This document shows positions 9,660 through 26,000 of a stretch of 64,000 nucleotides of DNA, piece after piece. Both the position numbers and the translations under genes were made by a program. The notes beneath the pieces are model-generated. The model did no database searches. It had not been told where the DNA came from and saw nothing but the letters and a program-made list of their open reading frames with translations. Source of the DNA: Lacibacter sp. H407 (GTDB taxonomy: Bacteria; Bacteroidota; Bacteroidia; Chitinophagales; Chitinophagaceae). Every line of letters begins with the position of its first letter. Position 1 is the stretch's first letter. The DNA lies in assembly GCF_037892605.1 (NCBI RefSeq), contig NZ_JBBKTU010000001.1:3410001-3474000 (forward strand), written 5' to 3'.

Positions 9660-9835
9660 TGGTTTTGGTTGATGATAATAATTGAGCACGATGATAAAAT
9701 CTTTTTACTTCAGAAAGTGTAGGAAAGATGTTAAAGTGTTATATTTCCATATAAACGGTTGCATTTTTTTAACGATTATTCAGCAAGTGTTTTGAATTGT
9801 TAAACGGCAACGAACCATCACTTAAACGAACCAAC

Positions 9836-11785
9836 GTGGAATCTCCAAAAAAATACGAAGACTATCATTTCATTGATACATCAAAACAGGTGTGGAATTA
9901 TTCACGTTTTGAAGGCGACGACATTGCTAACTTTCAAAATGGAACCAACTATCGGTGTGATGAACTCTTCGGTTCACACAAAATGGAAGTGCTGGGAACT
10001 GTGGGTTATTATTTTGCCGTATGGGCACCCAATGCAACAGCCGTATTTGTAATGGGCGATTTTAATTATTGGAATAAAGAAACGCATCCGCTCTACGTTC
10101 GCTTAGATAAGTCAGGTATTTGGGAAGGTTTTATTCCCGATCTGCCACAAGGCTCTTCGTACAAATATCATATTCATGGATATGCCGGTCAGAAATTAGA
10201 TAAAGGCGATCCCTATGCAAATTATTGGGAGGTTCGTCCAAACACCGCTTCACGCACCTGGCAACTGGATCATGAATGGAAAGATGAAGGGTGGATGGAG
10301 AAGCGCAAAGAACACAATAAACTAGATGCACCGTGGAGTGTGTACGAAGTGCACCTGGCAAGCTGGATGCGCCCCGATAAGAACAATGAAGAAGTTTATC
10401 ACTCGTATGATTTCTTTCGTGATAAGCTGGTGAGTTATGTAAAAGAAATGGGCTTTACCCATGTGGAGTTAATGCCCATCATGGAACATCCGTTCGATGG
10501 GAGTTGGGGTTACCAGGGTGCAGGTTATTTTGCGCCCACATCCCGTTACGGAACACCGCAGGAGTTTATGCAACTGGTGGAAGCGTTTCATAACGAAGGC
10601 ATCGGTGTAATACTCGATTGGGTGCCATCTCATTTTCCGTACGATGCACATGGTCTTTTTATGTTTGATGGTACACATACCTACGAGTATGCGGATATGC
10701 GCAAAGGGTATCATCCGGATTGGAACAGTTATATTTTCAATTACAAGCGTGGTGAAGTAAAGTCATTCCTAATCAGTAATGCCATGTATTGGTTCCGGAA
10801 ATATCATATTGATGGTATTCGGGTTGATGCGGTTTCGTCCATGCTCAAGCTCAACTATTCCAGAACAGCAGGGCAGTGGGAGCCAAATGAATTTGGGGGA
10901 GATGGAAACCTGGAAGCGATTGCCTTTATCAAAGAATTGAACGAAACCATCTTCCGTGACTTCCCCGATGTACAGACGATTGCTGAAGAAGCCACCGATT
11001 GGCCGGGTGTAAGTAAGCCCACTTTTGGTGACGGACTCGGATTTGGTATGAAGTGGATGATGGGGTGGATGCACGATACATTGAAGTACTTTAAACAGGA
11101 TCCATTATACCGCCAACACCAACAGGATCAGTTCGCTTTCAGCATGATGTACTATTATGATGAGAATTTTATGTTACCTCTCAGTCATGATGAAGTAGTG
11201 CACGGGAAAAGCCCAATGCTCTATAAAATGCCCGGCGATGAGTGGCAGAAATTTGCTAATCTCCGGTTGATGTACAGCTACATGTTTACCCATCCGGGCG
11301 GCAAGTTATTGTTCATGGGAAATGAATATGGTGCCACCAGCGAGTGGAATTACAAAACAGAATTGCAATGGGAATTGCTTGAATTTGCGCCGCATAAAGG
11401 GGCAAGGGAATGTGTAAAAGATCTTTGTCACTTGCTGAAATCGGAGCCGGCATTGTACGAGAACCAGTTCAACCAGTTTGGGTTTGAATGGATCGATCTC
11501 AATCATCGAAGCGAGTCGGTGATCGTGTATCGTCGAAAAGGCAAAAATCCGGAGGATGATATTTTGGTGGTGCTGAACATGACGCCGGTTGTACGTTCCG
11601 ACTGGAAAATTCATGTGCAACACAAGCAGGAGTGGAAAGAACTTTTTAACAGCAACGATTCCAAATACTGGGGAACCGGAGATATCGCAAATCCTGAAAT
11701 TGGCGTTCGGGTGGTAGATGGGCAAGCCGGCTGGTACGAGTTGAATGTGAACCTGCCAGCCCTGTCGGCAATTTTACTAAGGTAA
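9836..11785 (+). CDS. glgB: 1,4-alpha-glucan branching enzyme
   Basis: Makes alpha-1,6 branches in glycogen. It has one N-terminal CBM48-type domain (YYFAVWAPNATAVFVMGDFNYW) and no extra N1 domain, then a GH13 barrel with GVILDWVPSHFP, DGIRVDAVSS (nucleophile Asp), IAEEATDWPG (acid/base Glu) and LSHDEVVHGK. No ATG is available: the frame opens after a stop at 9770-9772 and offers TTG at 9797 or GTG at 9836. I use the GTG, giving 649 residues; the TTG would add 13. It is separated from glgA-glgC by the oxidoreductase and receptor genes and has its own upstream region, so it is probably transcribed independently. Identification is firm, the start is not. Confidence 0.94.
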   Translation: MESPKKYEDYHFIDTSKQVWNYSRFEGDDIANFQNGTNYRCDELFGSHKMEVLGTVGYYFAVWAPNATAVFVMGDFNYWNKETHPLYVRLDKSGIWEGFIPDLPQGSSYKYHIHGYAGQKLDKGDPYANYWEVRPNTASRTWQLDHEWKDEGWMEKRKEHNKLDAPWSVYEVHLASWMRPDKNNEEVYHSYDFFRDKLVSYVKEMGFTHVELMPIMEHPFDGSWGYQGAGYFAPTSRYGTPQEFMQLVEAFHNEGIGVILDWVPSHFPYDAHGLFMFDGTHTYEYADMRKGYHPDWNSYIFNYKRGEVKSFLISNAMYWFRKYHIDGIRVDAVSSMLKLNYSRTAGQWEPNEFGGDGNLEAIAFIKELNETIFRDFPDVQTIAEEATDWPGVSKPTFGDGLGFGMKWMMGWMHDTLKYFKQDPLYRQHQQDQFAFSMMYYYDENFMLPLSHDEVVHGKSPMLYKMPGDEWQKFANLRLMYSYMFTHPGGKLLFMGNEYGATSEWNYKTELQWELLEFAPHKGARECVKDLCHLLKSEPALYENQFNQFGFEWIDLNHRSESVIVYRRKGKNPEDDILVVLNMTPVVRSDWKIHVQHKQEWKELFNSNDSKYWGTGDIANPEIGVRVVDGQAGWYELNVNLPALSAILLR

Positions 11786-11836
11786 ATCACCTAAAAATGT
11801 AAAATATGGCAGGGTTTATGCTCGTAGAACTACTCT

Positions 11837-11865
11837 TGTCTTTAAATTTAATATGCCTAATTTTA
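11837..11865 (+). promoter_or_regulatory. Candidate Bacteroidota promoter for the TPR gene
   Basis: A ttg (-33 like) near 11837 is followed by taatttta at 11858-11865, which matches TAnnTTTG except the last base. It predicts a transcript starting just before the ATG at 11889 and supports that start over the ATG at 11853, which would sit inside the promoter. Confidence 0.35.
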
Positions 11866-11888
11866 CACGAATCCAAAATACAAATCCA

Positions 11889-12920
11889 ATGAAAACCCGG
11901 TTATTCATCACCGCAACTATTTTACTACTCTCATACGGTTCGTTTGCACAGAACCGTGACAGTTCCAACGCAGTTTTACAAAGAGCGATCATCGCTAAAC
12001 AGGAAAGACGCATGCAACTTGCAATGAACCTGTTTGAACAGGCTGTGAAATGGGATACCAGCAATGTGGAAGCTTTGAAATCAATGGGCGAGTGGGGCAT
12101 TGAGAGCCGCAACTACCGTCAGGCAGTTGAAGCATTCACCCGCTGGCATAATCTGGAACCAAACAATGAATCAACATTTCAGCAATTGGCCAATCTGTAT
12201 TTCAACATGGGCCGCTACCAGGATGCATTGAACTTTACTGCAAAATGGGAGAAGGCGCATAAGGATAAACCAATGCACTATATCACCGGTATGTGCAATT
12301 ACTATCTGGAAGATTATCCGCAGGCAATTAATCGCTTGTTACATGCAATGGAAACAGATACATCAAACCCTGTTTTGTTTTACACACTTGGCAGAAGCTA
12401 TTTAGAAATGGAGCGTTACAAGCAAGCCATTCCGTATTATCAGAAAGCAGCGAATGCAGATCCGAAAAATGCACGTTATGTATTTGAAATGGCGATGGTG
12501 TATTATGCCATTCCTGATGATAAAAATGCAATTGCCATGTTTGAACTGGCAGCACAGCGTGGCTGGGCACAGAACGCTGATTTTTTCGAAAGTGTAGCTT
12601 ATTGCTATATGAATCTTGGAAATTTTGCAAAGTCAACCGAATACCTTGAGAAATCAATTGAGAAACGTCCACATAGTCAAACTGTACGATATGCTTTGGC
12701 AGAATCGCAATACAAGGGTGGCCGCTATCAAGATGCCATCAATAATTGGGACATGGTTTTGCAGACCGATAATAAAAATGCACGTGCATTGTATATGATC
12801 GGTATGGCCTATCAAAAAATGGGACAGAAGGATAAAGGCATGGCACTTTGCGATAAAGCCATTGAAATGGATCCATCATTGAACAGTCTGAAACAGAAAA
12901 AAATGGACATGGGCATGTAA
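11889..12920 (+). CDS. Secreted tetratricopeptide-repeat protein
   Basis: A 343-residue protein with signal peptide MKTRLFITATILLLSYGSFA followed by about eight consecutive TPR-like helical pairs to the C-terminus (for example AVEAFTRWHNLEPNNESTFQ and YKQAIPYYQKAANADPKNAR). No catalytic domain is visible, so it is probably a periplasmic scaffold or adaptor. The frame opens 12 codons earlier at 11853, but only Met13 (11889) gives a proper signal peptide. It stands alone between glgB and the amidotransferase and ends at a good terminator. The partner is unknown. Confidence 0.85.
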   Translation: MKTRLFITATILLLSYGSFAQNRDSSNAVLQRAIIAKQERRMQLAMNLFEQAVKWDTSNVEALKSMGEWGIESRNYRQAVEAFTRWHNLEPNNESTFQQLANLYFNMGRYQDALNFTAKWEKAHKDKPMHYITGMCNYYLEDYPQAINRLLHAMETDTSNPVLFYTLGRSYLEMERYKQAIPYYQKAANADPKNARYVFEMAMVYYAIPDDKNAIAMFELAAQRGWAQNADFFESVAYCYMNLGNFAKSTEYLEKSIEKRPHSQTVRYALAESQYKGGRYQDAINNWDMVLQTDNKNARALYMIGMAYQKMGQKDKGMALCDKAIEMDPSLNSLKQKKMDMGM

Positions 12921-12944: not shown

Positions 12945-12979
12945 GAAAGGGCTGCAATTTATTGCGGCCCTTTCCTTTT
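12945..12979 (+). terminator. Intrinsic terminator after the TPR gene
   Basis: gaaagggctgcaa (12945-12957) pairs with ttgcggccctttc (12962-12974) with one G-U pair and a four-base loop, followed by a T-rich tail. Confidence 0.7.
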
Positions 12980-13026: not shown

Positions 13027-13034
13027 TAAATTTG
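13027..13034 (+). promoter_or_regulatory. Perfect -7 element TAnnTTTG before the amidotransferase gene
   Basis: taaatttg matches the Bacteroidota sigma -7 consensus exactly and ends five bases before the ATG at 13040, so the transcript would be nearly leaderless. This decides the start: the open frame begins at 12962, upstream of the promoter and inside the preceding terminator. Confidence 0.6.
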
Positions 13035-13039
13035 CCGCT

Positions 13040-13879
13040 ATGGCTGATGTTAAGCAGGTACGTGTTGCAATTCTTGATTTGTATGAGGGGCATGTGAACC
13101 AGGGCATGCGTTGTATCCGGGAAATACTCAACCTGTTTGCCGATCATTATCATCTTCAATTAATATGGGATGAATTTGATGTACGCCGCAAAAACGAAGT
13201 GCCCGATCTCAGCTACGATGTATTTATTTCTTCAGGCGGCCCGGGTAGTCCATTGGAAAGTGAAGGGATGGAATGGGAGAACACGTTTTTCAATTGGATA
13301 TCACAGGTGAAAATGTGGAATGAGAATCCGCTGCAAGAACAAAAGAAGCATGTGTTTTTTATTTGTCATTCCTTTCAGTTGGCTTGTCGTTATTTCAAAA
13401 TCGGAAATGTATGTGCTCGTAAGTCAACTGCGTTCGGTGTGTTTCCTGTTCATTTTATTTCCGGTGCTGAGGAAGAAGCTGTGTTTAATGGATTACGAGA
13501 TCCATTCTATGCAGTTGACAGCCGTGATTACCAGGTTGTACAACCCGATCATAAACAACTGAAGCAAATTGGTGCAACCTTGTTATGCATTGAAAAAGAG
13601 CGGCCGCATGTTCCGTTTGAACGGGCTATTATGGGTGTGCGTTTCAATCAATACATGATCGGTACACAGTTTCATCCCGAAGCAGATGCTGTTGGTATGA
13701 GCATGTATCTGCAAACAGAAGAGAAACGTAAAACAGTGATCGATAACTACGGGTTTGATAAATGGAAGAGTATGATCGAACATCTTGATGATCCCGATAA
13801 AATTCTTTTCACCTATTCGCACATACTGCCGAATTTTTTACATCATGCTGTGCTTTCTGAAGATTCGGTTGCAGTATAA
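13040..13879 (+). CDS. Class I glutamine amidotransferase-like protein
   Basis: A 279-residue cytoplasmic protein with the class I GATase fold. The oxyanion-loop motif ISSGGPGSP is present, the nucleophile elbow is FFICHSFQLA with Cys109, and His212/Glu214 lie in QFHPEAD, completing the Cys-His-Glu triad. The usual elbow GxCxGxQ is altered to IxCxSxQ-like, with both glycines lost, so the enzyme is a divergent member. It may release ammonia from glutamine for a partner ligase or hydrolyse a gamma-glutamyl bond. It lies 124 bp upstream of an ATP-grasp protein on the same strand and within 2.5 kb of two more amide-bond ligases, so a shared biosynthetic role is inferred. Confidence 0.85.
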   Translation: MADVKQVRVAILDLYEGHVNQGMRCIREILNLFADHYHLQLIWDEFDVRRKNEVPDLSYDVFISSGGPGSPLESEGMEWENTFFNWISQVKMWNENPLQEQKKHVFFICHSFQLACRYFKIGNVCARKSTAFGVFPVHFISGAEEEAVFNGLRDPFYAVDSRDYQVVQPDHKQLKQIGATLLCIEKERPHVPFERAIMGVRFNQYMIGTQFHPEADAVGMSMYLQTEEKRKTVIDNYGFDKWKSMIEHLDDPDKILFTYSHILPNFLHHAVLSEDSVAV

Positions 13880-13953
13880 ATTCTTTCGATGAAATAGAAA
13901 AAGGATTTCCAAACTTGTGGTAACCTGTTAAATTGCAAGCAATCTTCAACAAC

Positions 13954-13965
13954 GTTGGCAACCCT
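13954..13965. repeat. Half copy of the dispersed GTTGGCAACC element
   Basis: gttggcaaccct is identical to the right arm of the inverted repeat at 59624-59656. Here it stands alone in the gap between the amidotransferase and ATP-grasp genes, overlapping the candidate -33 element of the latter. Confidence 0.55.
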
Positions 13966-13985
13966 GAAAAAATCCGCTACATTTA
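13955..13985 (+). promoter_or_regulatory. Candidate promoter of the permuted ATP-grasp gene
   Basis: ttg at 13955-13957 and tacattta at 13978-13985 (7 of 8 matches to TAnnTTTG) are separated by 20 bp, a normal Bacteroidota spacing, with the ATG 18 bp further on. The -33 part lies within the repeat copy at 13954-13965. Confidence 0.4.
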
Positions 13986-14003
13986 GTCTACAAAATTTCT
14001 CCT

Positions 14004-15197
14004 ATGGTTTCCTCACTCCGCAAGTCTTTCAATTCCAATTTCACAGTTGAAAAATATGAGGCGTTCTTACAAGACCTGCATAGTAAACATCCGGGTGATA
14101 TTGAGTTTCGGGTAAGCGAAACACCGGTGTTTGTTGATAAAGCGTTCAAACAAAAAATGATCGATGCATGCGAACGCATTGTTGATGTGATTTGCGATGA
14201 AAAATTTCTTGCACTTACAGAACGGTCCATTCCTGCTGGTGAAAAAGTGCCGAATGAAAATAAACAAGCACATATGATCGCTTTCGATTTTGGTGTTTGT
14301 ATTAACGAGGAAGGCGAACTGGAGCCACAACTGATCGAGATGCAGGGCTTTCCAACATTGTTTGGTTTTCAGGTGTATTATCCGGAAGTAGTTGAGCGGC
14401 ATTTCCCGATCCCATCAAACTACAGTCAATACCTAAGCGGGTATAGTAAAGAGAGTTATATTGAAATGCTGCAAAAACTGCTTATTGGAAATTTGCCAAA
14501 AGAGAATGTAGTATTGCTGGAGATAAAACCCGAAGAACAAAAAACACGTATTGATTTTTCCTGCACTAAAGATTATACAGGTATTGAAGTTGTTTGCTTA
14601 ACCAAGCTGATCCAGGAAGGAAGAAATTTATACTATTTAAAAGATGGTGTAAAAACAGCGATCAAACGTATTTACAACCGTATCATTTTTGACGACCTCA
14701 AAGCAAACAAAGAAAAGCTGGGCGCCGTAGTTGATATTACGCAGGATCTTGATGTGGAATGGGTACCACATCCCAACTGGTTCTATCGCATCAGCAAGTT
14801 TACACTACCGTTTATTGATCATCCATATGTACCTGAAACATTTTTTCTTAATGAAATAAAACAACTGCCTGCTGATTTGTCGAACTATGTATTAAAGCCA
14901 TTGTTTTCATTTGCAGGACAAGGTGTGATCATTGATGTTGCACAGGAAGATATTGATGCGATTCAAGACCCTGAGAATTTTATTCTGCAACGCAAAGTAA
15001 AATATGCCGATGTGGTAGAAACGCCTGATGAGCCAGCGAAAGTAGAGATCCGCATGATGTATGTGTGGCCCGATGGAGATGCACGACCACATGCAGCCAT
15101 CAATCTTGCACGTATGAGCAAAGGAAAAATGATTGGGGTGCGGTATAACAAAGACAAAACCTGGGTAGGAGGTAGTGTAGCGTTTATGGAAAAGTAA
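14004..15197 (+). CDS. ATP-grasp protein, probably circularly permuted (glutathionylspermidine-synthase-like)
   Basis: A 397-residue cytoplasmic protein I do not recognise by name. An acidic motif QLIEMQGFPTLFGFQ (Glu112, Gln114) comes first and resembles the metal-binding ENADTPT-type motif of glutathionylspermidine synthases. Much later come the ATP-binding lysine motif YVLKPLFSFAGQGV (Lys298), FILQRKV and EIRMMYVW. In ordinary ATP-grasp enzymes the lysine motif precedes the metal motif, so this order suggests circular permutation (inference). The expected chemistry is ATP-dependent joining of a carboxylate to an amine. It is flanked by a GATase and, converging across a shared terminator, a GCS2 ligase. 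Substrate unknown. Confidence 0.7.
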   Translation: MVSSLRKSFNSNFTVEKYEAFLQDLHSKHPGDIEFRVSETPVFVDKAFKQKMIDACERIVDVICDEKFLALTERSIPAGEKVPNENKQAHMIAFDFGVCINEEGELEPQLIEMQGFPTLFGFQVYYPEVVERHFPIPSNYSQYLSGYSKESYIEMLQKLLIGNLPKENVVLLEIKPEEQKTRIDFSCTKDYTGIEVVCLTKLIQEGRNLYYLKDGVKTAIKRIYNRIIFDDLKANKEKLGAVVDITQDLDVEWVPHPNWFYRISKFTLPFIDHPYVPETFFLNEIKQLPADLSNYVLKPLFSFAGQGVIIDVAQEDIDAIQDPENFILQRKVKYADVVETPDEPAKVEIRMMYVWPDGDARPHAAINLARMSKGKMIGVRYNKDKTWVGGSVAFMEK

Positions 15198-15240
15198 AAA
15201 GCCATCAACACATTTGCTTGATGGCTTTCATTTTGTTTTT
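15198..15240. terminator. Bidirectional terminator between the ATP-grasp and GCS2 genes
   Basis: aaagccatcaa (15198-15208) and ttgatggcttt (15218-15228) form an 11-bp perfect stem with a nine-base loop, followed by a T-rich tract on the plus strand and preceded by an A-run that serves the minus strand. Confidence 0.75.
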
Positions 15241-15247
15241 TATGAAA

Positions 15248-16360
15248 TCAGATGCCGCTCAAAAACTGTCCTCCAATGTAATCTACCACGGAAGTAAAGT
15301 TTTTGGTTTCTTCATATACTTTTAATTGTCTGTCGGCACCGGTGCCATTCTCCATCATTACAGGAATATAGTTGATGGCAGCACGGCAGCCTAATTCATC
15401 TACCACATCATCTACAAAGTCGAGCAATTCATAGATCAATGCACGTGTATTGGTTTCTTCCTCTTTACCGAAATCAATTAAGTAACCATCAATTCCATAA
15501 CGGCTGGCACGCCATTTATTTTCATTAATAAGTGCCCGTTGGTATTGAATGAAATTCATATTCGTATTCCGCAGCTTGTACAGCTTGGCAGTAATTGCCT
15601 GGAACAAACCAGTGATCGCAATGGTTTCCATCACCGTCATCGGTACATCACAAATACGAAATTCTATGGTATTGAAGAAAGGGTGTACACGCAGATCCCA
15701 CCAGATCTTTTTTGCATTGTCGATACAATTTGTTTTGATCAATAGCGAAACATAATTTTCGTAGGCTTCAATGCTGTCGAAATATTCAGGTATGCCGGTG
15801 CGGGGAAATTTATCAAATACTTTTGTGCGGAACGATTTGTAACCGGTCATTCGTCCTTCCCAGAAAGGGGAGTTGGTACTGAGAGCATACACATGCGGCA
15901 AAAAATAACGTGCAGAGTTGGCTAAGTGAATCGCCATCTTTCTGTTTTCAATTCCAACATGTACATGCAAACCAAAAATAAGATTGCTTCGTGCTGCTTC
16001 CTGCAATTCATTTACAATTTGATTGTAACGAACATGATCGGTGATCAACTGATCCTGCCAATGACTGAAGGGATGAGTACCACTTGCACCAACCGCCAGT
16101 CCAATATTACCTGCAATACCGCTGATGGTTTTTCGTAATAGAGAAACATCGGTAAATGCCTCATCAATATCACGACAGATGTCGGTCCCTACTTCCACCA
16201 CTGCCTGATGCATTTCAGCTTTCACTTTATCCTTGATCACTTTCTGTCCTTCATTAACGATCTTTTGTTCATGGCTTTTCAATTCCCTTGTTGCGGGGTC
16301 GAATACCATGTATTCTTCTTCTACACCTAATGTGAATTGTTTATAATTTATATTGCCCAT
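15248..16360 (-). CDS. Carboxylate-amine ligase, GCS2/YbdK family
   Basis: A 370-residue member of the glutamate-cysteine ligase family 2, which forms amide bonds through an acyl-phosphate. Seen: LGVEEEYMVFD at 11-21 (acidic metal ligands), GLHVHVG at 130-136, and FNTIEFRICDVPMT near the ATP site. Family members include weak glutamate-cysteine ligases and enzymes for other gamma-glutamyl or amide products, so the substrate is open. It starts 22 bp after an ATP-grasp ligase gene on the minus strand; that pair resembles the GshA/GshB logic of glutathione synthesis, but the ATP-grasp partner is not a clear GshB. Confidence 0.9.
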   Translation of the reverse strand: MGNINYKQFTLGVEEEYMVFDPATRELKSHEQKIVNEGQKVIKDKVKAEMHQAVVEVGTDICRDIDEAFTDVSLLRKTISGIAGNIGLAVGASGTHPFSHWQDQLITDHVRYNQIVNELQEAARSNLIFGLHVHVGIENRKMAIHLANSARYFLPHVYALSTNSPFWEGRMTGYKSFRTKVFDKFPRTGIPEYFDSIEAYENYVSLLIKTNCIDNAKKIWWDLRVHPFFNTIEFRICDVPMTVMETIAITGLFQAITAKLYKLRNTNMNFIQYQRALINENKWRASRYGIDGYLIDFGKEEETNTRALIYELLDFVDDVVDELGCRAAINYIPVMMENGTGADRQLKVYEETKNFTSVVDYIGGQFLSGI

Positions 16361-16382
16361 TTGTTTCCTTCAATTAATTGTA

Positions 16383-17336
16383 TTAATACAACGGCTGTTT
16401 ATTTGCACCACGTACTACATACTCGCCCCAGGTTAAATTGTCAGCTCCGTCTTTTTGTTCAAGTGCACGTTCAATTGCATAGGATGCCGATGCCTCCACT
16501 ACCCAATCAAAATTTTCCTGTCCAACACTTGCAAGGTCTGCATCAGGAGCGGGGTTGCAGAAATCAATCGCATAAGGCACGCCATCACGTAAGGCAAGTT
16601 CAACAGTATTGAAATCATAGCCGAGATAATTGTTGATGCGAAGTACGATCTCCGTCATCATCTTTAGTTTTTCTGCTGATGGTTGAAAATCGGCAACATA
16701 ACGTAAGTGATGCGGATTACGTGGCTCATAACTCATGATACGTACATGCTTACGGCCAATGCAATAGCAACGGTAATATTCTTCAAACACAATTTCTTCC
16801 TGCAGCAACATCACCAATTGTCCGGTTTCTGCATGCTTTTCAAAAAACTCTTCAGCACTACGGAGTTTGTATACATTTTTCCAGCCGCCGCCTGCATACG
16901 GTTTCATGTAAGCCGGAAAACCAATATAGTTGAACATTCCTTCCCAGTCCATTGGAAAGGCAAGGTTGCTGAACGATTCATCACCTGTATCATCGGGTGT
17001 ATCTTTTGAAGGAAGGATCACCGTCTTCGGAACAGGAACGTCAATTTTTGTTGCAAGGCAGTTGTTGAAAAACTTATCATCGGCACTCCACCAAAACGGA
17101 TTGTTGATCACAGCAGTTCCTGTAATGGCTTCGTTCTTTAAATAAGCACGGTAGTGTGGTACATCCTGCGATATACGATCAATGATCACTGCATATCCAT
17201 TGTTTACACCTTGTACCACTTTGTCGATACGTACAGGTTCCGCCATTATTCCCGGGATATTTTTACTGTTTATCCGTTCAACAAAAGCTTGTGGAAACGA
17301 GCGTTCTTTACCGTGTAAAATGCCGATCTTTTTCAT
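16383..17336 (-). CDS. ATP-grasp ligase (RimK / D-Ala-D-Ala ligase-like)
   Basis: A 317-residue cytoplasmic enzyme. The phosphate-binding region reads FPAYMKPYAGGGWKNVYKL with Lys145, followed by LLQEEIVFEEYYRCYCIG, and the metal motif is YAIDFCNPAPDAD (Asp258, Asn261), with Asp replacing the more usual Glu of ExN. This gives ATP-dependent carboxylate-amine ligation, substrate unknown. The frame opens 26 codons upstream, but ATG 17336 (MKKIGILHGKERSF) is the natural start. First gene of a two-gene minus-strand operon with the GCS2 ligase; the esterase is divergent from it. Could be a glutathione-synthetase analogue or a peptide-tagging enzyme. Confidence 0.85.
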   Translation of the reverse strand: MKKIGILHGKERSFPQAFVERINSKNIPGIMAEPVRIDKVVQGVNNGYAVIIDRISQDVPHYRAYLKNEAITGTAVINNPFWWSADDKFFNNCLATKIDVPVPKTVILPSKDTPDDTGDESFSNLAFPMDWEGMFNYIGFPAYMKPYAGGGWKNVYKLRSAEEFFEKHAETGQLVMLLQEEIVFEEYYRCYCIGRKHVRIMSYEPRNPHHLRYVADFQPSAEKLKMMTEIVLRINNYLGYDFNTVELALRDGVPYAIDFCNPAPDADLASVGQENFDWVVEASASYAIERALEQKDGADNLTWGEYVVRGANKQPLY

Positions 17337-17462
17337 GATGCAATTATTTAAGATTGAGATGAATGATTGTTGCTGACGAACTCCGGTTGATTTTTGCATT
17401 AATATAGTACACAATTCCCGAAGAATGCTGCACTTATGAAAAATATTTTCACTTCATTTTCT

Positions 17463-17470
17463 TATTTTTG
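17463..17470 (+). promoter_or_regulatory. Perfect -7 element TAnnTTTG before the esterase gene
   Basis: tatttttg matches the consensus exactly, five bases before the ATG at 17476. No clear TTTG -33 element is seen at the usual distance. Confidence 0.5.
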
Positions 17471-17475
17471 ATGTT

Positions 17476-18282
17476 ATGCTTATGGAGAAAAGGATGCGTA
17501 TCGTTGTGGAAAATGAAGAAATATATTCCGTACATCTGGATCGTGATGTGAAGCTGGATATTTATCTGCCTACGCATGTCTTAAAACCGGAAACTATCAA
17601 TCTGCTGCTGATCAATGATGGGCAGGATCTTCCAAAAATGCCATTTGCTGAAATTCTGGGTGATCTGTATCAACAAGATAAGATCGAGCCTCTTCTGTGT
17701 GTAGGTATTCATTGTGGTACCGAACGTAAAATGGAATATGGAATTGCCAGTCAGCCCGATTACCTGGGCCGTGGCGCAAGAGCAGCCGATTATACCAGTT
17801 TTATTTTTGAAGAGCTGTTGCCTTTTTTACACCGGCAGTACAACATTGTTCAGTTTAAAGAAAAAGCATTTGCAGGATTTTCATTGGGCGGTTTGATGGC
17901 ACTCGATCTTGTATGGAACAATCCCGAAGCTTTCAGCAAGGTTGGAGTTTTTTCAGGTTCATTATGGTGGCGGCAAAAAGCATACGATGATGGGTACACA
18001 GATGAAGCCGATCGCATTATGCACAACCAGGTAAGAGATGGCATTGCATCACCAGGCTTACAGTTCTTTTTTCAAACCGGATTATTAGATGAAAAACTTG
18101 ATCGCAACAACAATGGTGTGATCGATTCCATTGATGATGCTTTAGACCTGATCAGCGAATTAAAAAAGAAAGGATATGCTGATAGTGCTATCCGTTATGT
18201 TGAGCTTGCAGATGGCGGTCACGATGTGCCAACCTGGGCCAAAGCGTTCCCTGACTTTTTGAAATGGGGATGGGGGAAATAA
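17476..18282 (+). CDS. Alpha/beta-hydrolase esterase (YbbA/Fes-like) with a calcium-type loop
   Basis: A 268-residue esterase D / enterochelin-esterase-like hydrolase without a signal peptide, so cytoplasmic. The nucleophile elbow is GFSLGG with Ser136 and the catalytic His is in GGHDVPTW (His249). Residues 209-220 read DRNNNGVIDSID, which fits the D-x-N-x-N-G-x-I-D-x-x-D spacing of EF-hand or dockerin calcium loops and is unusual inside this family. It is divergent from the ATP-grasp/GCS2 operon, so it may hydrolyse or release the product of that pathway (inference). It ends at a strong bidirectional terminator. Confidence 0.82.
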   Translation: MLMEKRMRIVVENEEIYSVHLDRDVKLDIYLPTHVLKPETINLLLINDGQDLPKMPFAEILGDLYQQDKIEPLLCVGIHCGTERKMEYGIASQPDYLGRGARAADYTSFIFEELLPFLHRQYNIVQFKEKAFAGFSLGGLMALDLVWNNPEAFSKVGVFSGSLWWRQKAYDDGYTDEADRIMHNQVRDGIASPGLQFFFQTGLLDEKLDRNNNGVIDSIDDALDLISELKKKGYADSAIRYVELADGGHDVPTWAKAFPDFLKWGWGK

Positions 18283-18358: not shown

Positions 18359-21300
18359 TTAGAAAATATAACGAAGACCAAGCTGTGCGCCCCATACACT
18401 TGTAACACTTCTGTTCAACTGGAACGGAGTTGTTGGGAGACGACCACTAACAACTTGCATTGTATATCTGGGTGCGCCTGTAGTTGGATCAACACTGTTA
18501 AACACTAATGGAGTTACATTATTTGTGTTACCAGAGTAATTATTGTAACGTACACCCCAGTTTTTGTTTAGCATGTTAGCAAAGTTCAACACATCAGCCT
18601 GTAAACGGAAAGTGTGTTTGCGGTTGCCAATATTAAAACTGAAGTCTTGCTGAACCTGAAGGTTCACATTGTGTACCCATGGTAACAATGCTTCATTCCT
18701 GTTTGTATATCCACCTCTTCTGTTTTTTAATGAGCTGTTCTCAATAAATTGATTGAAAGCATCCCATTGTTGTTGTGCAGTAAATGGTGTAGATCCGGTA
18801 ATTGGAACGAAAATAATTTCGCTTTGATTACGTGGGATGTACATCAAATCAGCTGCGTTACCATCACCATTCATATCATTCTGGTACACGTAGCTGAAGT
18901 TACCCTGAGGAGAGCCTTCATAGAAAAGTGTTACAGTTGTTGACAATGCCTTCAGGTATTTGAATGTATAACCTGTTGAAGCAATAAAACGATGCGGGAT
19001 CGCATTATTTGCCCAGCCTTGCTGCAAATCATTTTGAGTGGTAGTAGTGGCTGTGCTGTTCCAAACTGATGCTGCTGTTGAGCCAGGGTTGCTGGTAACA
19101 TCAAACATAGCCGTATAGGTGTACGCTGCTGTTGCAAAGAAGCCCTTGCTGAAACTTTTTGTCAACTGTGCTGATAATTGTAAACCACCACCTTTGTTTG
19201 TGTTTTCAAGTACAATTGCAGTGGGTAAAGAAGGGTAAAGACGACGTAATGCCAAAGCTGGTGCACCATTACCTGTTAACGAATAACGGGGGCGTGTGTC
19301 AACACCATTAAACCTGGTATCTGGAGCTTTCTCATTTGCATTGCGCATACGGATCGCATTTACATCTTTGTTGAAAATACCTTCAAATGTAACTGACCAT
19401 CCACCACCTAAACGCTTGTCTGCTGCAATATTGAGACGTGCAACCTGAGGAAATTTAAAGTTTGGATCAACCAGTACAGGAGATGCGCCAGATGGCAAAG
19501 GACCACCAGCAGTTGAAGGAAACTGATTGCGATATGCGGTTGGATCAGGGTTAAAAGTAATACCTGCTAATTGAGCAGGAGTTGTAAGTGCTACGTTACC
19601 TTGGTACATCTGACTGTTAGATGGCATATTGGTAAGGAATACAAACGGGAAACGACCTGTAAATAAACCAACACCACCACGAACGATCAAACTCTTGTCG
19701 CCAACAGCATCCCAGCGGAAACCAACACGTGGACTGAATACTGGAGAAGCCTTCGGCCATTTGCCAGTACTATAATTTGTAGGGTTGCCATCAGCACCCG
19801 GGAATGTAAATGCTTTGATAGTTGGATTTTCCAATGGACTTTCAAGATAAATTGGAACATCCACACGCAAACCAACAGTCATTTTGAAGCGTTCGTTGAA
19901 GTTGATGTCGTCTTGTAAATAAGCTGCCAGCTGACCGATTTTCATCTCCGCAGAATACACACCACCATTGCCATCTGTTTTATCAGGAACAAGCGAATAA
20001 GTGTAGGTGTACGCAACCGGAGTTGCGTTATTATAGAAATCGTTCAGGTCACGAAACGCATAGTAGCTTTGTGAACCCGCCATAAACATATTTCCAACAA
20101 ATTGTTGCTCGTAATTAACACCTGCGGTGAGGGTATGACGACCAACAAAATATTTAAAGTTGTTGGTAATATTAAAAATACGGTTGGTTACATCGTTGTT
20201 ATTTGAATATGGTTCACGTCCAAAGCTGATATAGTTGTTGCCGGCACCATCAAAAATATCAACAAACGGAAACAACGTACTTGGTGTTGTTCTGGTTGTT
20301 TTATTTAATGTAAATGTTGCCAATAACTGGTTGGACCATTTGCCACCTTTTGAACTGTTGATTTCTACTGCACCTGTGCGTACAATATTTCGAAATGCAT
20401 AGATCGAATTTTCGTAAGACATTGCAAACTGTCCAAAGCGGCTTTGTGGCAAGTTTGTTCTTGTGCCTGAACCTCCCGGAACAGTATAGTTCGGGTTGTT
20501 TGGCATTGACGTAGCATTGGTAATGATATCCTGATCACCAACCATTTCATTATAACGTGCAGTTAATTTGTGCACTTTGCTGATGTTCCAGTCGATACGG
20601 CCAAATACTTTGTAATTGGTTGTGGTAAAATTTGGGAAATTATCATAACCACCTGTTTGATATCCATATCTTCTGTTAAGCGTATCAGACAATGCTTTTA
20701 GATCAGTTGCCAATACACGTGAAATATTATTAGCGCCCGATCCACCTGTAGGAGTCCATGTTATACCAGGGCGAGTTTCAACTTCATATTCACCACCCGC
20801 AAAGAAGAATAATTTATTCTCAATGATCGGTCCGCCAACAGTTAAACCATAAATATTATTCGTACGCTTTGTTTGGTCAGGGAGTTTTGTAGATGCCACT
20901 TTCGTTCCGTTGAATTTTTCATTACGGTATAAAGTATAGGCACTTCCTTTAAAAGTATTGGTACCGCTTTTTGTTACAACGTTAATACCAGCACCCGTAA
21001 AGTTACCTTGCCAAACATCAAACGGAGAAACATTTACAGAGATCTCATCAATTACATCTAAAGAAATTGGTTGGTTACCTCCACCTGGTAGTGGATCGTT
21101 ACTCAAACCAAAATTATTATTCAGGTTTGCACCATCGATTTGAATGTTATTATAACGGGCATCACGACCTGCAAAACTGTTACCGTTTGCCTGTGGAGTT
21201 AAACGTGTAAAATCTGCGACAGACCGGTTTATGGAAGGAATTGTTGTAATTAACCTGTTATTGATACTTGTTGAGGTACCTGTTTTTTCAATTGCAGCAC

Positions 21301-21676
21301 GTCTGCCTCCGGTAACTACAACTTCAGCAATCTGCTTCACATCTTCGCTCATATCAACACGAATATCATATGGCTCACCAAGTGCGAGGCTGAAACCTTC
21401 AACTTCGTAAGCTTTCTGACCAACATACTCTACTTTCAATTTGTAAGGTCCGCCAATTCTTGCGTTGGGAATATTGAATATCCCACCTTTTTTGGAAACG
21501 GTAGAATAAGTAGTTCCTGTAGGAAGATGGGTTGCAGTAATAGTAGCACCTTCTAATTCGGCACCAGCTTTGTCTTTTACAGAACCTGAAATACTACTGG
21601 TTGTTACCTGTGCACCAACAGCAAGGGTAACAAATGTAGCCATCATCACAAAGAGCAGTTTTTTGATTTTTAGCAT
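18359..21676 (-). CDS. Oar-like TonB-dependent receptor with N-terminal carboxypeptidase-regulatory domain
   Basis: An outer-membrane protein of 1105 residues with signal peptide ending AVGAQ, a carboxypeptidase-regulatory/beta-sandwich domain (about 28-110), a plug domain (AEVVVTGGRRAAIEKTGTST, IQIDGANLNNNFG, GAGINVVTKSGTN) and a long beta-barrel ending in LGLRYIF with the C-terminal aromatic residue needed for barrel insertion. This architecture matches Oar-type receptors, common in Bacteroidota and Myxococcus. No SusD partner or substrate enzyme is adjacent, so cargo is unknown. A candidate promoter with TTTG and a near-consensus -7 element lies 21-54 bp upstream of the ATG. Confidence 0.9.
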   Translation of the reverse strand: MLKIKKLLFVMMATFVTLAVGAQVTTSSISGSVKDKAGAELEGATITATHLPTGTTYSTVSKKGGIFNIPNARIGGPYKLKVEYVGQKAYEVEGFSLALGEPYDIRVDMSEDVKQIAEVVVTGGRRAAIEKTGTSTSINNRLITTIPSINRSVADFTRLTPQANGNSFAGRDARYNNIQIDGANLNNNFGLSNDPLPGGGNQPISLDVIDEISVNVSPFDVWQGNFTGAGINVVTKSGTNTFKGSAYTLYRNEKFNGTKVASTKLPDQTKRTNNIYGLTVGGPIIENKLFFFAGGEYEVETRPGITWTPTGGSGANNISRVLATDLKALSDTLNRRYGYQTGGYDNFPNFTTTNYKVFGRIDWNISKVHKLTARYNEMVGDQDIITNATSMPNNPNYTVPGGSGTRTNLPQSRFGQFAMSYENSIYAFRNIVRTGAVEINSSKGGKWSNQLLATFTLNKTTRTTPSTLFPFVDIFDGAGNNYISFGREPYSNNNDVTNRIFNITNNFKYFVGRHTLTAGVNYEQQFVGNMFMAGSQSYYAFRDLNDFYNNATPVAYTYTYSLVPDKTDGNGGVYSAEMKIGQLAAYLQDDINFNERFKMTVGLRVDVPIYLESPLENPTIKAFTFPGADGNPTNYSTGKWPKASPVFSPRVGFRWDAVGDKSLIVRGGVGLFTGRFPFVFLTNMPSNSQMYQGNVALTTPAQLAGITFNPDPTAYRNQFPSTAGGPLPSGASPVLVDPNFKFPQVARLNIAADKRLGGGWSVTFEGIFNKDVNAIRMRNANEKAPDTRFNGVDTRPRYSLTGNGAPALALRRLYPSLPTAIVLENTNKGGGLQLSAQLTKSFSKGFFATAAYTYTAMFDVTSNPGSTAASVWNSTATTTTQNDLQQGWANNAIPHRFIASTGYTFKYLKALSTTVTLFYEGSPQGNFSYVYQNDMNGDGNAADLMYIPRNQSEIIFVPITGSTPFTAQQQWDAFNQFIENSSLKNRRGGYTNRNEALLPWVHNVNLQVQQDFSFNIGNRKHTFRLQADVLNFANMLNKNWGVRYNNYSGNTNNVTPLVFNSVDPTTGAPRYTMQVVSGRLPTTPFQLNRSVTSVWGAQLGLRYIF

Positions 21677-23066: not shown

Positions 23067-26000
23067 TTAATCTCCTTTTTCAAAATCTTTTACATAGGAG
23101 AAACTGATACCTGCACGGTTACCGCTTCTCCATTGCACATCGTAAACGCTTCTGTAAAAGCCGATCAAACGAAGTTTACCATCTGGTGTGATTAACCACT
23201 CCAAGGTAAAATCGGGCGTAAGCTGGTTGTTGTTTTGAATAGGTGTGTTTTGTCCGGTGTTTACCAATACAGAACCACCTGCTTTCAATAATAATTTTCC
23301 ATTTAATAAGCGACGGGTAATTCCAAATCGGCCAGTTCCCTGAAAGCCTTGTGTTTGCGCTTGCGAACCGGAAATAAGACCAGGCGTAAACGTTACATAC
23401 GGATCCAGATTTAATTTATTGATGCCGGGTATATTGCGCAAAGCAACGCCTAAACCTGCCTGCACCTGCTGTGCAATAAATTCTGAAATAGTACCTGCTG
23501 CCGATGTAATTACACTACTGCCAATATTTGCAGCTGCACTCGATGAATTAGAACCACCTGATAAAAATTGATTGAAAAACAATAACGAAAATACCTGATT
23601 GTTTAATTCATTTGGATTGGAACGCATCCGTTCAAGCCCATTTACAGTAATGGGATTGTTTAAACACGGGTGCCCTGGTGGTAATTCGAAACGGAATGAA
23701 ATAGATGGTTTGCTTAATGTGCCCGATAAATTACTTACTACAGTAATTGTACTTCGCTCATTACTGCTGCAACCACTTGCAAGATCTTCCGGTAACGCAA
23801 TATTGTCGACAACATACTTTGCATCAATATTGATCTGAGCATCATATGGGTCGCCATTCCATTCTACGTAACCATTATTGATAAAAAAACGTTTCTTGAT
23901 CAGTTTCTCCCAATTAAAAGTATAGAGTCCTTTTGTAATATTAAATCGTCCGCCCATACTTGTTCCGGTTCGGGAATTTACAATGATGTTCAGATTTCCT
24001 GATCCTTGACCTTGTATCACATCATTGGTTACTTCATCCAATATCAAATCAATTTTGGCAAGTGGGTTGGCAATTACATCCAGATCAACCAACATGTGCG
24101 ACGTTTCTTTTACATTGGATTCCACCTTCATTTCCTTACCATACTTGCGGAATACAATAAAGTCGGCCGTGCCGGTTACCCGTGTATCGGATGTAGGAAG
24201 ATAGATATGCGAACTGTCGGTTGGCTCTGCACGTAGTTTCAATACCATATCAGTTACAGGTCCACGAATTGACCCGCTTGCATCGGCCACTACATTTCCA
24301 TAAAAAAGATCGTTGTCTTTCTTGGTGGTATTCAATACCTGGAAACCACGGGCTGCATTATTTGCACTGAACTGCATTGCAAACCCCATCTCCTTGAAAA
24401 ACTGATGATACAGTTTTCCGGAAAAAGTTGCCGTGCGTTTAGCCGTGTCCGTGAGTATGATCTTACCAAAATCGATCTCGCCCTTCTTAAAGGCAATTTC
24501 AGTTCCTTCGTTCATAGAATAACGACACTTGGTATAGTCGAGTACAAACGAAGTATTATTGAGCTTTACATTGCCGATGAGATCAGGTTTAGATGCATTG
24601 CCGGTTATTTGAATAAGGCCGGATGCTTCCCCTTTCATATCCGTCATAATGATCGACAGATATTGCTGCAGAATACTCAGCTTTAAATATTTTGCATCCA
24701 CCAGTTGATCGATCACCACATTGTTTGAATCTTTCAGATTGATCTTCCCCTTACTTGAAAATTCATAGGAAGGATTGTCTGAAATAATTTCTGTGTTGAT
24801 GTCGCCTGTTTCAGCGCTGTAATTTCCTTTGATACTTACAAGGCCGATGGAGTCATTGTTAAAACGGAAACGTTCTGCTTTCAAATCAGCCTCTGCCTGT
24901 ATTTTGCCGAATGGATTGATGATGTCCACCGTTCCTGTTACCTGTCCTTCCAATCGTGGATCTTTCAGGAAATAGGGGATAATGTCGCCCATTTGCACAT
25001 TCTTCAATTCAACAACAAAATCTTCGTTGTTAGAGATACCTGAGAGTTTCGTGTATGCAACAATACTTTCGTTGCCGGAATTTAACTTGAAGCTTTCGGA
25101 GTGGATCATTTTTTTACCAATGAACAGATCACTTTTATCTTCAATGTTCCAAACCTTCTCATTAACGACGATGGTGGATGGTTGGAAAATAATTCCGATC
25201 CCTTCACGCTTTGTGCTGATGCGTGCATTTAAGTTCGCATCTTTCAGCGTTTGTGTAGCTCTGGTACGAATGCTTACAGATCCTGTATCGTTTGCTGCTA
25301 TAACTTTAAATGTTGTTTGTGGTAAACTGATACTGTCGTTCAGTTTCACTTCCAGCATGGTGCCGTCAACATTCAGTTTATTATAATCGCCGGTTGCAAT
25401 AATGTTTGCATCGTTAAATCCAATTTTATTGTATTGGAAAAACGGAACATTTGTTTTTAGGTTAAAGCTACTTTCATTTGTATTGATGCCGCCACTGATA
25501 GTACTGTTGTCAAAACCTTTTACGGGCAGCTCAAAAATGTCGATGAATTCTGCAATGTTTTTTGTTACTACATCGAATGTGAAATTCTGATTCTTTACAA
25601 TTTTCGAAGGTCTCTGTATGTAGGAGGGAAAATAATTATGCAGGAACGAAAGTGTAGTGGTGGGTAAATCAAGAATATTAAAATCGCCACGTAAGGTTGC
25701 TTCAATTTCATTACTGCTGGCAGTTAACAATTTTTTACCTTCTGCATAAGCTGAAGAAAGTGTAAGGTAGTCGAACGATAATGTATCACCATCTTTTGTT
25801 AGTACAGCATTCTGTAAATTAGCTGTTCCTAAAAAGTCATCGATTGTTTTACCTTTGAAATCAAGTACAGCAAATGTTTTTAAACTGATATTTTTATTCA
25901 ACAGCCCAAGCTCTTTAAAATTGATCTTATAAATATCGCCGCTCAGTTTATAAACAGGTGTGTCTGAATTAAAGTTAACAAGCCCTGTTAAGTTTACAAT

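Follow-up and report, generated by a model that had tools for sequence, protein, structure and literature searches.

Five neighbouring genes of Lacibacter sp. H407 (Chitinophagaceae) lie in a 64,000-nucleotide stretch of contig NZ_JBBKTU010000001.1 (positions 3,410,001 to 3,474,000; hereafter the window), and four of them form a co-inherited module whose grouping is not due to chance. These four core genes encode a protein of the class-I glutamine amidotransferase (GATase) fold (GAT), two ligases of predicted ATP-grasp fold (ATPg1 and ATPg2) and a carboxylate-amine ligase (GCS2); the fifth gene, an esterase, is the least tightly associated by counts over the loci read. ATPg1 and ATPg2 make up the shared core, and GCS2 almost always accompanies them. 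We tentatively propose, while rating the idea somewhat short of even, that this Bacteroidota module assembles a short peptide-like molecule in successive ATP-dependent ligations, with an amine at its end and with GAT cleaving an amide. All five genes are intact open reading frames (ORFs), placed as in an earlier reading of the sequence alone (Table 1).

Co-inheritance was assessed in an even sample of 296 Bacteroidota genomes, including that of Lacibacter sp. H407, with E-value thresholds of 1e-3 for ATPg1, 1e-20 for ATPg2, 1e-30 for GCS2 and 1e-15 for GAT, which found the four in 92, 108, 103 and 70 genomes, respectively. Of the 92 genomes with ATPg1, 89 also have ATPg2 (Fisher p 3e-52, relatedness uncorrected); the other 3 lack it, and 19 genomes have ATPg2 without ATPg1. 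All four core genes are present in 50 genomes, the three ligases without GAT in 34, a GCS2-type match alone in 9 and none of the genes in 176, and GAT is found without ATPg2 in one of its 70 genomes. The two genes are within 10 kb of each other on a single contig in only 48 of those 89 genomes, so that linkage alone does not explain their co-occurrence. Within the family (60 genomes, one per genus, relatedness again uncorrected), ATPg1 was found in 45, ATPg2 in 44 and both in 42, where the ATPg1 count takes in one 35-residue fragment with a stop and the ATPg2 count one 34%-identical relative and one partial sequence. When co-conservation is checked across relatives, the association of the four core genes is kept, though many relatives split them physically, and the sequence-only reading that the genes belong together holds for these four, all of amide-bond enzyme families. 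About 30% of the sampled Bacteroidota (89/296) carry two co-inherited ligase families unmatched in Pfam, nearly always together with GCS2. Neither ATPg1 nor ATPg2 matched any of 72,556 plasmid records. A mobile element was considered and rejected, with no plasmid matches and with 17 candidate stretches in viral contigs, none of which was confirmed.

Gene order was read in two sets of loci, denoted by L numbers. The phylum-wide set holds 60 loci of at most 20 kb, chosen by hand from genomes with matches and hence not random, of which 51 centre on ATPg1 and 9 on ATPg2 (L129, L136, L138-L144). The 80 named loci are the best 80 of 592 confirmed ATPg1 loci, with at most 80% identity, and their titles name Chitinophagaceae or other Bacteroidota or read 'uncultured bacterium'; contig ends cut many of them. 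Start codons in the loci, and hence gaps, are approximate. At least two loci contain genes that longest-ORF calling missed, ATPg2 and GAT in L140 and ATPg2 in L141, which were placed by the searches of the 296 genomes. Pfam scans named part of the neighbours, and unscanned cluster members carry the name of the scanned member.

All four core genes stand in 22 of the 60 phylum-wide loci, and the esterase in 16, each of them with all four; ATPg1 is alone in 14. In the class to which Lacibacter belongs, loci of other families (L105, L106, L108, L110, L111, L124) show the esterase divergent from a row c5-ATPg2-GCS2-GAT-ATPg1, where c5 is a second esterase-like hydrolase that 16 of the 60 loci hold. 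Beyond that class, L114 has ATPg2-GCS2-GAT-ATPg1, and L112, L113, L125 and L126 have the three ligases in a row. Counted over the phylum-wide set with the window included, the gap between ATPg2 and GCS2 is below 70 bases in 29 of 31 pairs, and GAT and ATPg1 overlap by 4 bases in 4 of 27. Among the 80 named loci, GAT is directly 5' of ATPg1 on the same strand in 63 and all four core genes are found in 18, while in three (L145, L146, L195) GCS2 and ATPg1 are on opposite strands, as they are in the window. The window is an inverted version, with the ATPg2-GCS2 half flipped, of the common one-direction operon ATPg2-GCS2-GAT-ATPg1.

Some lineages without GAT at the threshold used have another hydrolase beside ATPg1. 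An M29-type metallopeptidase stands between GCS2 and ATPg1 in four GAT-less loci (L115, where PF02073 was scanned, and L116, L117 and L123, assigned by membership of the same cluster), and an Amidohydro_3-type enzyme stands directly 5' of ATPg1 in four further GAT-less loci (scanned in L132 and L134, assigned by similarity in L133 and L236). Such a stand-in is beside ATPg1 in 8 of the 16 loci read from GAT-less genomes. A similar Amidohydro_3 gene is near the module in seven Chitinophagaceae loci of the 60-locus set and in 10 of the 80 named loci, mostly with GAT. ATPg2, a PF14403-like circularly permuted ATP-grasp gene and GAT form a row without ATPg1 in L138, L139, L141 and L142, and an esterase-like gene comes next in L138 and L139; L119 has ATPg2-GAT-ATPg1 without GCS2. 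As a separate observation, an amidase (PF01425 in L091), an Amidohydro_3 enzyme and an alpha/beta hydrolase lie just 5' of GAT in the Chitinophagaceae loci L091, L092, L193 and L223.

ATPg1 matches no Pfam or NCBIfam family at E 0.1, and its AlphaFold2 model (predicted local distance difference test, pLDDT, 92.7; predicted template modelling score, pTM, 0.91) predicts a circularly permuted ligase of the glutathionylspermidine (Gsp) synthetase / YgiC / glutathione synthetase fold. Structure comparison (VIA) gave Z 25.2 to YgiC (7uk8; root-mean-square deviation, rmsd, 3.5 over 342 aligned residues), 24.7 to YjfC and 23.6 to E. coli Gsp synthetase (GspS). The YgiC/YjfC/GspS/glutathione-synthetase group as a whole spans Z 19.5-25.2, and is followed by the putative gamma-glutamylcysteine synthetase 3k1t (Z 12.3), then LysX/RimK and other ATP-grasps below 8. 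Foldseek returned 21 chains under 1e-3 (E 8e-16 to 4e-8), all of them Gsp synthetase-like proteins, YgiC/YjfC, glutathione or homoglutathione synthetases, nematode GSS-like proteins or Cp1B, and a PDB search with a profile of 24 ATPg1 sequences found YgiC alone, at E 0.025, across the Lys/Gly-rich loop segment. Residues D95, E112, Q114, K298, G305, G307, E348 and R350 are invariant in all 24 sequences and presumably correspond to Gsp synthetase residues; their motifs come in permuted order, D95 and E112-x-Q114 before K298-P299, G305-x-G307 and E348-x-R350. The sequence-only reading had called ATPg1 a permuted ligase, which the predicted structure bears out, and a divergent ATP-grasp protein, which agrees with the missing Pfam and NCBIfam matches but is corrected here to the glutathionylspermidine/glutathione synthetase fold. 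Profile comparison (hhalign) of ATPg1 with the CP_ATPgrasp_2-like proteins that adjoin ATPg2 in some lineages gave a probability of 13, no confident homology, and with ATPg2 one of 0.3, again no confident homology.

ATPg2 has no Pfam match and a weak NCBIfam match to rimK_fam (24.5 bits, below the cut-off of 143.4). Its AlphaFold2 model, made from 19 sequences (pLDDT 71), is predicted to have a RimK/LysX-like ATP-grasp fold: VIA ranked RimK first (5zct; Z 18.1, rmsd 4.0, 262 residues aligned), then LysX/ArgX and graspetide ligases, with Ddl, synapsin and inositol kinases at Z 15-16, and the first Foldseek matches are Ddl and RimK. A Lys/Gly-rich loop and a DxxNPxPD-type motif are conserved in most of the 19 sequences. 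GCS2 matches PF04107 (207 bits) and NCBIfam PRK13515 (517.4 bits, above the cut-off of 371), its profile matches YbdK (1r8g) at 6.5e-66, and it is classified by its sequence as a YbdK/PRK13515-type carboxylate-amine ligase. The earlier comparison with a GshA/GshB pair is apt in so far as GCS2 and the RimK-like ATPg2 do recall one GCS-superfamily ligase plus one ATP-grasp ligase; the differences are the YbdK type of GCS2, the RimK/LysX-like fold predicted for ATPg2, the lack of a PF02955 match in the genome and the additional permuted ligase and hydrolase.

GAT reaches the gathering score of PF00117 (29.9 bits, cut-off 22.8), and all NCBIfam GATase models stay under their cut-offs, the best being PRK09065 (26.7 vs 205). 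Weak matches of the GAT profile in the PDB are to 3l7n, a putative uncharacterised protein (6.5e-5), and 2vdj, homoserine O-succinyltransferase (2.6e-4). The catalytic triad C109, H212 and E214 is invariant in 18 of 18 aligned sequences, as is S111 of the nucleophile elbow, which reads ICHSFQ in the window and departs from the glutaminase motif GxCxGxQ, where class-I glutaminases have Gly in place of Ser111. The sequence-only reading had the GATase adding an amide step; the unrelated hydrolases beside ATPg1 in some GAT-less lineages hint at bond breaking instead.

In the pathway that we propose, GCS2 would activate a carboxylate, for which the gamma-carboxylate of Glu is the most likely candidate, and couple it to an amino acid or an amine. 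ATPg2 would add a further residue, and ATPg1 would phosphorylate the terminal carboxylate and couple it to an amine such as homospermidine or spermidine. GAT, as a cysteine hydrolase, would cleave an amide bond of the conjugate or of its gamma-glutamyl cap, much as the amidase half of the E. coli Gsp synthetase/amidase cleaves the amide of its conjugate. The scheme gives no step to the esterases; the sequence-only reading had suggested that the esterase would release or trim the product. The gene set, the co-inheritance, the predicted folds and the conserved catalytic residues are what we observed, and to them we add, as inferred elements, the order of the reactions, the hydrolytic role of GAT and a polyamine as the amine, which is a plausible partner. 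Hydrolysis is preferred over ammonia supply because unrelated amide hydrolases are beside ATPg1 in half of the GAT-less loci read, and these stand-ins, as the main reason for a hydrolytic GAT, are a moderate one. It is perhaps the case that the module replaces the glutathione-spermidine chemistry of other bacteria. The most specific form of the proposal appears doubtful to us: in Bacteroidota with the bacillithiol pathway, three ligases would conjugate a gamma-glutamyl-type peptide to (homo)spermidine independently of glutathione, and a GATase-fold amidase, an M29-type peptidase or an amidohydrolase would release it. If the proposed pathway is right, there would be a widespread new class of metabolites and a route of amine storage or buffering for bacillithiol bacteria.

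Several points weigh against this proposal. The substrates of the module are themselves inferred. GAT is missing, at the threshold used, from 37 of the 92 ATPg1 genomes, and GCS2 from five, four of them in one family; no stand-in hydrolase was identified in the other 8 of the 16 GAT-less ATPg1 loci (L125, L126, L127, L128, L130, L131, L135, L228). The motif of Gsp synthetase and YgiC has an Asn (ExN-type), at whose position ATPg1 has Gln114, and the GSP_synth profile PF03738 is unmatched by ATPg1 in Pfam at E 0.1. A single ORF of L131 (6637-9237; 867 amino acids) joins ATPg1 in frame to a sodium:solute symporter (PF00474, 125.9 bits), and in L228, of the same genus, the symporter is split and its tail is in frame with ATPg1. 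Such joins are not predicted by a simple soluble pathway; the PutP/PanF-like symporter may import one substrate. As for the amine, it speaks for the proposal that the genome of Lacibacter sp. H407 encodes a protein of the deoxyhypusine/homospermidine synthase family (PF01916, 138.7 bits), a putative homospermidine source. NspC is under its cut-off there (59 bits vs 409), so that the polyamine would need another route, and exceeds it in 11 of the 296 genomes; the numerous weak NspC matches are probably other decarboxylases, and the result neither supports nor excludes a polyamine partner. A literature search found no work on sym-homospermidine in Chitinophagaceae. In favour of the proposal, YgiC and YjfC are described as peptide-spermidine ligases in excerpts of PMC12568646, which cite Pederick 2023; against it, an excerpt of PMC12506659, citing Sui 2012, describes YgiC itself as lacking glutathionylspermidine synthase activity, so that the fold of ATPg1 does not fix its substrate.

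Other explanations assign different roles to the same proteins. GAT could be a glutaminase that feeds ammonia to ATPg1, the two forming a synthetase that would put a terminal carboxamide on the GCS2/ATPg2 product. Class-I GATases feed other synthetases in this way, e.g. CarA/CarB, and both the same-strand position of GAT directly 5' of ATPg1 (63 of 80 named loci) and the 4-base overlap (4 of 27 pairs) are as for subunits. We nevertheless regard it as rather unlikely, given the ATPg1 genomes without GAT (37 of 92 at the threshold used), the 8 of 16 GAT-less loci in which another type of hydrolase adjoins ATPg1, and the elbow ICHSFQ with an invariant Ser111 where glutaminases have Gly; to our knowledge, moreover, the relatives of ATPg1 with solved structures ligate amines or amino acids, never ammonia. 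It is also conceivable, if unlikely, that the ligases tag a protein, ribosomal or cell-envelope peptide target in the manner of RimK, with GAT, the M29-type peptidase and the esterases removing the tag. The alternative hydrolases would suit tag removal, and RimK, LysX/ArgX and graspetide ligases, which act on proteins or peptides, are among the nearest solved folds of ATPg2; Ddl, synapsin and inositol kinases are within about 3 Z units of them. No recurring carrier protein was noticed among ORFs of at least 90 amino acids, most neighbours being unnamed, and the relatives of ATPg1 and GCS2 known to us act on small molecules.

That the module makes a thiol, either a glutathione-like or a bacillithiol-derived peptide, seems very unlikely. 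The resemblance of GCS2 and an ATP-grasp ligase to GshA/GshB would fit, as would the presence of BshC in the genome (407 bits, cut-off 265.8), but BshC exceeds its cut-off in 285 of the 296 genomes, with or without the module, and, being near-universal in the phylum, cannot tie the module to a thiol. None of 18 scanned neighbour proteins is a thiol enzyme. GshB (PF02955) has no match in the genome, whereas 9 of 14 control genomes do match; with BshC present and GshB unmatched, ordinary glutathione synthesis is ruled out. The last alternative, that the five are unrelated single-step enzymes that became neighbours here by accident, could draw on the 14 phylum-wide loci in which ATPg1 is alone and on the mere 18 of 80 named loci, many cut by contig ends, that hold all four core genes together. 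It is highly improbable overall, and for the four core genes it is contradicted by their co-inheritance even when unlinked and by the single operon of other families; for the esterase it is possible.

Among the known systems close to our proposed ligase-hydrolase pathway are YgiC/YjfC and GspS/GspA, which share the whole synthetase fold with the ATPg1 model (the Z scores of 25.2, 24.7 and 23.6 above) and, in the case of GspS/GspA, the pairing of a ligase with a cysteine hydrolase. ATPg1 is 14-15% identical to YgiC/YjfC and matches no Pfam profile. It differs from GspS/GspA in the absence of a fusion, ATPg1 being a protein of 397 amino acids on its own and GAT a separate gene of class-I GATase fold, in the accompanying GCS2 and RimK-like ligase and in a genome without a GshB match. 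The gamma-glutamyl amine cycle of PuuA/PuuD likewise pairs a ligase, of the glutamine synthetase fold, with a gamma-glutamyl hydrolase of class-I GATase fold; our module has two extra ATP-grasp ligases, and none of the 18 scanned neighbours is an amine oxidase or aldehyde dehydrogenase. Cyanophycin synthetase combines an ATP-grasp and a Mur-ligase domain in one protein, and the NAGGN (N-acetylglutaminylglutamine amide) pathway uses an AsnB-like class-II amidotransferase, whereas GAT is of class I and neither a Mur-ligase nor a class-II family was matched in the five window proteins. Iyer et al. reportedly predicted in 2009 amidoligase networks that combine GCS2, ATP-grasp and peptidase-like genes, the same kind of gene combination. 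No description of the gene set was found among the literature matches listed, though Iyer et al. 2009 may include it. Cp1B (9cjn) of the fungal E-64 pathway is a distant fold relative of ATPg1 (VIA, Z 22.0); as described in excerpts of PMC12568646, the Cp1B/Cp1D pathway ligates amides serially and adds a polyamine-type amine last, but Cp1D is an ANL-family enzyme, and GCS2 and GATase are unmentioned in those excerpts. The module is real and widespread, and its ligases belong to known superfamilies, so that it is not categorically new. The predicted Gsp synthetase-group fold turns the island into a concrete question: which amine, and which peptide.

Table 1 Features of the module in the window (positions are those of the window)
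Feature	Position	Strand	Basis or remark
Hairpin and T-rich tail 3' of TPR gene	about 12945..12974	+	-21.5 kcal/mol, z -6.1
GAT, class-I GATase-fold protein	13040..13879	+	PF00117; Cys109, His212, Glu214
ATPg1, predicted circularly permuted ATP-grasp ligase, GspS/YgiC/glutathione-synthetase fold	14004..15197	+	AlphaFold2 model, VIA
Hairpin between convergent ATPg1 and GCS2	about 15198..15228		T-rich sequence after it on each strand
GCS2, YbdK-like carboxylate-amine ligase	15248..16360	-	PF04107, NCBIfam PRK13515
ATPg2, predicted RimK/LysX/Ddl-like ATP-grasp ligase	16383..17336	-	ATG start at 17336; AlphaFold2 model, VIA
Esterase, divergent from ATPg2	17476..18282	+	PF00756

The hairpin between ATPg1 and GCS2 folds on both strands (-15 and -15.7 kcal/mol; z -4.1 on the + and -4.6 on the - strand) and is a probable bidirectional terminator, and the one at the TPR gene is a probable terminator predicted to set GAT apart from glgB-TPR. 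A pattern scan for promoter- and terminator-like sites found no excess over shuffled sequences, and both hairpins are absent from its list. The shared terminators of the sequence-only reading are plausible for ATPg1/GCS2, given the two-strand hairpin; its divergent promoter region stands as to geometry, with ATPg2 and the esterase diverging from a 139-bp gap. TAnnTTTG boxes, which we take to be the Bacteroidota -7 consensus, lie at 13027-13034 and 17463-17470 and end 5 bases 5' of the start codons of GAT and the esterase, a spacing that we assume to be as in leaderless transcripts. No tRNA or Rfam match was found in the window. The esterase (PF00756, 90 bits) is present in 16 of the 80 named, Chitinophagaceae-type loci. 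It adjoins a TonB-dependent receptor-like gene, recognized by eye (18359-21676), a relative of which adjoins the esterase in several loci, e.g. L145, L146, L157, L158 and L215. At the other end, glgB and the TPR-protein gene lie 5' of GAT (9797-12920), and the order glgB-TPR-GAT-ATPg1 is also found in L195. Further along, downstream of ribBA, an ORF of 1576 amino acids (23067-27797) looks by eye like a TamB-like envelope protein.

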